Positions 252 to 4,705 of a DNA stretch of 64,000 nucleotides are shown here, in pieces. The notes below the pieces were generated by a model. The model was given only the letters and a program-made list of their open reading frames with translations, made no database searches and was not told the origin of the DNA. Numbering within the stretch: the first letter of the stretch is position 1; the number at the start of each line of letters is the position of its first letter. A program made the translations under genes and the position numbers. The DNA comes from Candidatus Goldiibacteriota bacterium HGW-Goldbacteria-1 (GTDB taxonomy: Bacteria > Oederibacteriota > PGYV01). The stretch spans positions 1 through 64,000 of the forward strand of contig PGYV01000009.1 in assembly GCA_002839855.1 (NCBI GenBank), read 5' to 3'.

Positions 252-920
252 TTACTTTTTTCCTTTGCCTTTTTCTTCCTTTACTTTCTTGGCTGCGTCT
301 TCAACCGCGCCCTTAATTTCTTCTGTTTTACCCTTCATTTCTTTTTTCATCTTTTCTTCTTTGGATTTATTTTCCTTCATCATCTTCTTTTCTTCTTTGG
401 ACATGCCGTTCCATCTTTCTTTTGCCTTTGCAAGCTTTTCAGCCCTTTTTTCTTCGCTCATATTTGTCCAGCGTTTTTCTGCTTTTGCAACAAGTTCAGC
501 CCTTTTTTCAGGCGTAAGGCCGTTTATTTTTTCCTGCGCCTTTGCCTTTATCTGCGCTTTTTCCGCTTCCGGAAGGGCATTCATCTTTTCAGCCGCTTTT
601 GCCTTAACCGCTTCTTTCTGTTCTTCTGTCAATCCATTAAACTTTTTTTCAACTTTTGCCTGTTCTGCGGCTTTCTTCTTGTCATTCATCTTTGCGTACT
701 TTTTTTCAAGTTTCTTTCCGGCTGCCACTTTTCCTGCTTCTGTCATTTTACCAGTTGCTTCCGCAATTGCCGCTTCCTGCTGCTGTACCGGGAGAGCTTC
801 ATAAACCACTTCTTCCACTACTGCTTCATCCTTTGCAATGTCTGTTGCTTCATCCGCAATTGCTGCAGCTGCGAATGTCATGAAAAACATTACCATAAAA
901 AAACCAAGTCCTTTTTTCAT
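252..920 (-). CDS. Secreted Ala/Lys/Glu-rich 19-residue-repeat protein
   Basis: A 222-aa exported protein of unknown function. Residues 1-22 form a signal peptide with a likely cut after AIA (AIA-DEA). Residues 76-189 contain six consecutive 19-residue repeats with the pattern NGLTxExRAExxAKAxxRW; each starts with an Asn/Thr-Gly/Met turn and continues as a charged amphipathic helix. The LTPEKR-type core recalls the LTxxQ motif of Spy/CpxP-like chaperones and DUF3106 proteins, so an extended helical periplasmic protein is plausible, but this is inference. The C-terminus is Lys/Glu-rich. The start ATG has an AGAAGGAG ribosome site. It has its own promoter (1010-1038) and an about 80-nt leader with a hairpin, so it is a separate transcript. 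Confidence 0.8.
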   Translation of the reverse strand: MKKGLGFFMVMFFMTFAAAAIADEATDIAKDEAVVEEVVYEALPVQQQEAAIAEATGKMTEAGKVAAGKKLEKKYAKMNDKKKAAEQAKVEKKFNGLTEEQKEAVKAKAAEKMNALPEAEKAQIKAKAQEKINGLTPEKRAELVAKAEKRWTNMSEEKRAEKLAKAKERWNGMSKEEKKMMKENKSKEEKMKKEMKGKTEEIKGAVEDAAKKVKEEKGKGKK

Positions 921-1805: not shown

Positions 1806-1907
1806 ATATCCCCTTTTTTGTTTATAAAAATATTTCTGCTTACCTGCATAATTATATACATAAACATTGAAATATTAAATAAAATTCAGGGATTTTTTAT
1901 GAGATAT

Positions 1908-2001
1908 AAAAAAAGAACGGCGGTTTTGGCAACTGTCGGAGGGGCTTCTTTTTCATGTAGGGCTGCGAACCCTTTTGCCCGTGACTGTTTCCAAAACCGC
2001 C
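1908..2001 (-). terminator. Long-stem terminator ending the candidate ncRNA
   Basis: On the minus strand GGCGGTTTTGG (2001-1991) pairs with CCAAAACCGCC (1929-1919), extended inward by AACAGTC/GACAGTT with one mismatch, and is followed by GTTC and seven T (1914-1908). The apical part contains a further small hairpin GGGTTCGCAGCCC. Confidence 0.75.
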
Positions 2002-2144
2002 TGCCGGTACTGCTGATGCTGCTTCCGGCACTCCCTGTCTGGAGCTCTTTCCAGTTCCGGTGCACTTTCTGTTGCTTTGCACTTTCCGGTTCCGGTGCTG
2101 TTTCTGTTTCTTTTCTCTATCCCGTTCTATTTCCTTTCTCTTGC
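1908..2144 (-). ncRNA. Candidate structured non-coding RNA (about 237 nt)
   Basis: The 480-bp gap between the hydrolase and the ACT-protein gene has no convincing protein gene but carries a complete minus-strand transcription unit: a strong promoter (2179-2151), a purine-rich 5' segment without start codons, several GC-rich stem-loops (CTGGA/TCCAG near 2050-2035, GCCGG/CCGGC near 2030-2003) and a long-stem terminator (2001-1908). CCGGAA is repeated in the 5' half. It does not contain the conserved cores that I know for SRP RNA, RNase P RNA, tmRNA or the GEMM c-di-GMP riboswitch. It could be a free small RNA or a terminated leader controlling the hydrolase downstream. Confidence 0.65.
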
Positions 2145-2150
2145 ATATTA

Positions 2151-2179
2151 ATTATACTTCATAAAATGCAAATAATCAA
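2151..2179 (-). promoter_or_regulatory. Sigma-70 promoter of the candidate ncRNA
   Basis: Minus strand TTGATT (2179-2174), exactly 17 bp, TATAAT (2156-2151). Predicted start near 2144. Confidence 0.8.
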
Positions 2180-2288
2180 ATTTCACACAAAAATAAATAC
2201 CGCCTTTAAAATATTTTTTTCATAAACTGCTGTTTGCTTTTTTGCCTTTACGATATATAATTAGATAAATAAACCTTAGGAGGACGGG

Positions 2289-4491: not shown

Positions 4492-4550
4492 ATATTGTAA
4501 ACATCCTTTTTAATGCTGATTTATCCAATAAACTGTTATCCCGTATCTGC

Positions 4551-4693
4551 TTAGATGCTTGGACGCTTGGATGCTTGGTAAAAACCCAAATCAACTGCCG
4601 CGGGCTAAAGACTCGCATCTACTAAAACGTCCAAACTGCTGAGCAATCTTGTTTTTTTGTACTTGCCAAGCATCCAAGCCTCTAACCATCTAA
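4551..4693. repeat. MITE-like element with 28-bp inverted ends
   Basis: Left end 4551-4578 and right end 4666-4693 are inverted copies matching at 25 of 28 positions; the inner 14 bp (GCTTGGATGCTTGG at 4565-4578, CCAAGCATCCAAGC at 4666-4679) are perfect. The 87-bp core carries CCGCGGGCTAAAGACTCGC, a degenerate copy of the CGCGGGCT...AGACCCGCG repeat. No coding capacity. It occupies the spacer between the TPR gene and the helicase gene. Confidence 0.65.
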
Positions 4694-4705
4694 CCTTCCG
4701 CCTTC

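Follow-up and report, generated by a model that had tools for sequence, protein, structure and literature searches.

A conserved small structured RNA family without an Rfam counterpart, probably acting as a free-standing RNA, in an uncultured bacterial lineage

Several kinds of bacterial RNA stand close to the locus analysed here. The staphylococcal Rsa RNAs are independent of Hfq and have a conserved C-rich stretch that could pair with ribosome-binding sites, while sponge RNAs of the CsrB/RsmZ type carry repeated purine-rich units within one RNA. Our locus, which lies in a 64-kb stretch of DNA that we call the window, shares features with both of these, with 6S RNA and with terminated riboswitch and attenuator leaders. 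As in Hfq-independent small RNAs such as the Rsa RNAs, there is a promoter and a C-rich stretch that could pair with ribosome-binding sites, and the gene would be free-standing, with an intrinsic terminator and no need of Hfq; however, no similarity to the Rsa RNAs in sequence or structure is evident, and part of the C-rich stretch is base-paired here, within a terminator hairpin that has a loop region of about 60 nt. Repeated purine-rich units are common to our RNA and to CsrB/RsmZ, but no CsrA was found in the order, and the units here are RGAAAGYG-like and are weak or absent in several members. The length and the long hairpin recall 6S RNA (RF00013), yet there is no large central bubble and no match to the 6S model, and a true 6S gene lies elsewhere in the same genome. 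Terminated leaders are alike in promoter, fold and terminator, and one of our copies (the paralogue b described below) stands directly before a gene, whereas the downstream genes are unrelated and have promoter-like sites of their own for most members. The RNA belongs among the bacterial small structured RNAs as a previously uncatalogued family, one for which literature searches on the lineage and on candidate structured RNAs gave no description in the titles and abstracts listed.

Read on the minus strand, positions 2179 to 1908 of the window form a compact transcription unit, in which a promoter is followed by a purine-rich 5' domain, an 83-nt hairpin and a run of seven T (Table 1). A preliminary description had proposed just such a unit, with a promoter TTGATT-17-TATAAT, a purine-rich segment, CCGGAA repeats and a T run after a stem, and we recover each of these elements. 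Taken singly the promoter is not rare: sites of its quality number 2 in the 64-kb stretch against 1.7 +/- 1.2 in shuffles. It stands above chance because it is conserved in relatives, as part of a motif of the form AAAtTTGNTT...TATAAT. The motif is not exclusive to these RNAs, since its four genomic sites comprise the two RNA copies, one site before a protein gene and one within a coding frame. Both the promoter and the T-run are present and conserved across members. A terminator scan reported no simple short-loop terminator at the hairpin, because the loop region of about 60 nt is itself folded.

Table 1. Coordinates of the RNA and of neighbouring or related features (window positions unless a contig is named)
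Feature	Position	Strand	Remarks
Sigma-70-type promoter TTGATT-17-TATAAT	2151..2179	-	10/12 consensus matches
Predicted transcription start	about 2144-2146	-	judged from distance to the -10 box
5' domain, purine-rich, U-poor	2002..2146	-	145 nt, 73% purine, 7% T
3' structured domain, stems P1 (11 bp), P1b, P2, P2b, P3	1919..2001	-	folding, covariance model, pair counts
Apical hairpin P3, AGGGTT-CGC-AGCCCT, 6 bp	1959..1973	-	folding
CCCCWCCG (CCCCTCCG in the window)	1937..1944	-	invariant in 10/10 members; partly unpaired, 3' side of P2
Seven T following the hairpin, where intrinsic termination presumably occurs	1908..1914	-	sequence
Separate promoter-like site of the hydrolase gene, TTAATA-16-TATAAT, outside the RNA	1851..1878	-	also conserved in L009
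Copy b (locus L040/L115)	G000:C4:341054-341144	-	second copy in the genome, 33-nt 5' domain

The outer stem P1 of the 3' domain is formed by GGCGGTTTTGG (2001-1991) and CCAAAACCGCC (1929-1919), which bears out the 11-bp stem described before; the inner stem, put then at 7 bp, has 6. The 83-nt hairpin folds with -35.7 kcal/mol (z = -4.1 against dinucleotide shuffles), and all ten members of the family, folded separately, give one general shape, in which P1 (about 11 bp) is followed by a small internal loop, then by P2 and P2b, with the hairpin P3 at the apex. The covariance-model match covers 1909-2003. In the model alignment, which was fitted to the structure, 89% of paired cells hold a pair against 79% in shuffles, nine pairs are changed on both sides, and the covariation score is 0.305, compared with 0.131 in shuffles (0 of 500 reach 0.305) and at most 0.164 in slid structures. 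Some of the P1 changes are a register shift between members rather than single substitutions, and P2 and P3 are under-counted, since the model alignment there places the window type one column off. A MAFFT alignment with an unforced RNAalifold structure also yields seven pairs with changes on both sides. The fold is conserved, with compensatory changes. Moreover, the P1 cells contain nine G-U and no A-C pairs, and sense matches score 77-86 bits against about 26 or less for antisense, both of which support transcription of the minus strand. As far as sequence can show, then, the 3' domain is under selection for base pairing on that strand.

The 5' domain behaves differently. A purine strand bias as strong as that seen here occurs in only about 1.2% of 140-nt windows across the 64 kb, and the domain carries repeated units of the RGAAAGYG or CCGGAA type: CCGGAA occurs four times, and RGAAAGYG, a motif picked after looking, twelve times against 0.49 expected. 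The units are absent or weak in G010, in G012 and in the b copies, and are therefore not essential to the whole family, a point against the action in trans proposed below. The length of the domain varies between species, from 47 to 155 nt among free-standing members. The "several GC-rich stems" once noted in it find no support, as the domain alone folds no more stably than shuffles (z = -1.4).

How widely is the RNA spread? A BLAST search with the whole unit finds it in both other genomes of the genus, at 82% and 77% identity. Starting from a match in G007, which belongs to another family of the same order, we reached G013, G010 and G012 as well as a second copy, shorter than the first, that each of the three genomes of the genus carries. 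The covariance model built on the hairpin (R1) recovers ten members, spread over 7 of the 14 genomes of the order, at E <= 1.7e-17; as these are the sequences from which R1 was built, what counts is the gap to all other matches. Below the members come hairpins that are short or unrelated and members read in antisense, and the other 377 genomes of the 384-genome set contain no member at E <= 1e-4. Within what was searched, the family is confined to two families of one order, with one copy per genome in the second family and two in the window's genus, namely the window copy (a) and the shorter paralogue (b).

Identity follows the boundaries of the unit, beginning at the promoter and ending at the T-run. 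For G007 against G013 the promoter and the hairpin each show 0.89 and the 5' domain 0.75, compared with 0.40 for the spacer that leads to the next promoter. Among b copies, values are again higher for the promoter (0.88-0.91) and the hairpin (0.90-0.97) than for what lies ahead of the promoter (0.33-0.53); the short spacer that follows the hairpin shows 0.32-0.41 against G002, yet 0.86 between G000 and G001. Apart from this last comparison, selection therefore acts on blocks running from promoter to T-run. With its conserved promoter, fold and T-run and no coding signature, the RNA family is, at the level of sequence, well supported as real, and the earlier suggestion of a candidate new structured RNA stands up to the Rfam, conservation and covariation checks that were proposed with it.

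Other candidate matches fell away on inspection. Short DNA matches in the distant genomes G003, G004, G008, G011, G030 and G034 proved to be AT-rich or promoter- or terminator-like chance matches, weak model matches of about 40 nt seem, from their length, to be plain hairpins, and two weak matches in G007 (L105, 30 bits, and L078) read as unrelated hairpins. At L105 1522-2253 we saw by eye an ORF resembling REP-associated transposases beside GC-rich hairpins. A DNA pattern used to scan genome contigs, too narrow in that it required four T in the stem, regained only three known members; its nine other matches, and likewise three matches in viral contigs, were unconfirmed by the model.

What would such an RNA do? 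We consider it probable, with appreciable room for doubt, that the window encodes a small non-coding RNA, about 235 nt long and free-standing, which belongs to an uncatalogued family and acts in trans without Hfq or CsrA. RNA polymerase would start near 2145, and the 3' hairpin would both terminate transcription and protect the 3' end. The largely unpaired purine-rich 5' domain could then mediate action in trans, its RGAAAGYG-type repeats offering a contact surface either for an RNA-binding protein, in the manner of a sponge, or for pyrimidine-rich segments of mRNAs. CCCCWCCG, being able to pair with ribosome-binding sites rich in G, may either serve as a second contact or be part of the fold. 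The molecular function, and with it the action in trans, is something we infer, with putative targets and a putative protein partner. Hfq was found in none of the 45 genomes of the phylum (G000-G044) and CsrA in none of the 14 genomes of the order (4 of the 44 genomes searched have it), while positive-control genomes matched in both searches; the two proteins are therefore ruled out as partners. Much of small-RNA biology centres on Hfq and CsrA, and a partner or target found in hosts that appear to lack both would point to another route of RNA regulation. More generally, ten copies in seven genomes make up a structured RNA family without Rfam counterpart, and RNA regulation in the uncultured lineage that carries it seems to be unstudied.

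The main rival, which applies chiefly to the b copy, is a leader acting in cis, like an attenuator or riboswitch, in which the hairpin stops transcription unless a ligand, a protein or a ribosome event intervenes. We regard this as unlikely overall. In all ten members the next gene lies downstream of the RNA and points the same way, an arrangement that a role in cis would explain, and this codirection, together with the tight linkage of the b copy to a single gene, counts against action in trans. In G000, G001 and G002 a distance of 20-35 nt separates the T-run of b from the start of one and the same downstream kinase gene, which encodes SBP_bac_3-PAS-HisKA-HATPase domains (Pfam, run on G000). 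In two of these three species b adjoins pstB-phoU, which it follows in G000; G001 has a different upstream gene. Between b and the kinase gene no consensus promoter was seen in G000, a weak point since the same scan also missed the RNA's own promoter. The b copy may thus act as a leader or attenuator, and the two paralogues, one free-standing and one leader-like, would offer a test case for one fold moving between use in trans and in cis.

The neighbours of the other members fit a leader poorly. The window copy is flanked by a divergent 81-aa gene (2289-2534), which has a weak TM1266-like match below the Pfam cut-off, and by an alpha/beta hydrolase gene. A promoter-like site of the same style, TTTGCTTTTTTGCCTTTACGATATATAAT, precedes the divergent gene at 2233-2261 (+). 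In G002 a MerR/TipAS regulator gene intervenes between the RNA and the hydrolase, with a TTGACT...TATAAT site, read by eye, that encloses a palindrome. This palindrome, ATGACGTTACGTCAT (L118 6997-7011), is a likely operator of the MerR/TipAS regulator, a regulator that G000 and G001 lack at the corresponding place. Elsewhere the next gene encodes a topoisomerase zinc-ribbon protein (G007 and G013), an RfbA-like nucleotidyltransferase (G012, named from its sequence rather than by a Pfam search) or a FecR-domain protein (G010). No common pathway joins these genes; the association is constant only within a genus and differs between genera. In the window, G007, G013 and G012 the next gene has a promoter-like site of its own. 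Finally, no alternative antiterminator pairing was noticed in a non-systematic look at the folds. The preliminary description had left the choice between a free small RNA and a terminated leader of the hydrolase; because the genes downstream vary from genus to genus and mostly come with a promoter of their own, the free RNA fits the window copy better and the hydrolase leader is disfavoured there.

A reading that combines trans and cis action is rather less likely still than the leader. Here a lineage without Hfq and CsrA would use a dedicated RNA family whose hairpin is terminator and functional core at once and whose 5' repeat arm captures an RNA-binding regulator, with one paralogue turned into a leader that acts in cis on a sensor-kinase gene and, in two of the three species, adjoins pst-phoU.

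Could the hairpin be merely an oversized intrinsic terminator after a meaningless purine-rich transcript? The T-run at its end and the quickly changing length of the 5' domain would agree with this. However, the unit carries a promoter itself, and there is no upstream gene in the window that it would terminate; the copies are as few as one or two per genome; and the inner architecture of the 83 nt (P2, P2b, P3 and CCCCWCCG) is kept between families, something that termination does not require. We think this explanation improbable.

We give very little credence to the idea that the RNA is a diverged member of a known family, such as 6S, SRP, CsrB/RsmZ-like or GEMM RNAs, although its size resembles 6S and it is GGA-rich like CsrB. 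No Rfam 15 family reaches its gathering score at the RNA, and permissive E-values give only chance-level matches: over 901 bases the lowest is E = 1 (rliA, 16.8 bits against a cut-off of 50), and the lower values of a further scan (0.0011 and above) fall away from the RNA. The sole Rfam match of the window is a tRNA. In G000 the 6S model finds a single gene at C4:78928-79105 and the SRP RNA model (RF00169) one at C7:256018-256115, and both leave the RNA locus unmatched. Links to 6S, SRP, CsrA and Hfq were all rejected. 6S RNA itself is present in 37 of 44 genomes of the phylum.

Equally remote is a small mRNA, with a leaderless ORF from an ATG at 2146 encoding a K/R/E/Q-rich peptide: the frame is open for about 53 codons in G001 and 68 in G002, and its 12- and 18-nt purine repeats would be translated into repeats of the peptide, but in the window it meets a stop at codon 10 after nine open codons, G012 has no ATG at that place, non-synonymous changes predominate in almost every frame, and overlapping ORFs that were tested have no Pfam match. 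Six pairwise comparisons in all six frames show no consistent synonymous excess, and the indels (one of 35 nt between G000 and G001, three of 1 nt between G007 and G013) are not multiples of three; on substitution pattern and indels, coding readings of both strands were rejected. The earlier statement that the unit holds no protein gene is right in substance, though a 61-aa ORF with a GTG start, without Pfam match, does exist on the RNA's strand.

Some further features of the window may be recorded. At 252-920 (-) lies a gene for a DUF3106-family protein, K/E/A-rich and secreted-looking, with repeat-like stretches, after which comes a GC-rich hairpin with T-rich sequence at about 200-235. The word AAATCAACTGCCGCG occurs three times, once with a mismatch, against 0.21 expected (98-112, 4588-4602 and 59539-59525 on the minus strand); it is apparently intergenic at least at the first two sites and is possibly part of an interspersed repeat. 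The region 4550-4700 also carries repeated words resembling GCTTGGATGCTTGG.
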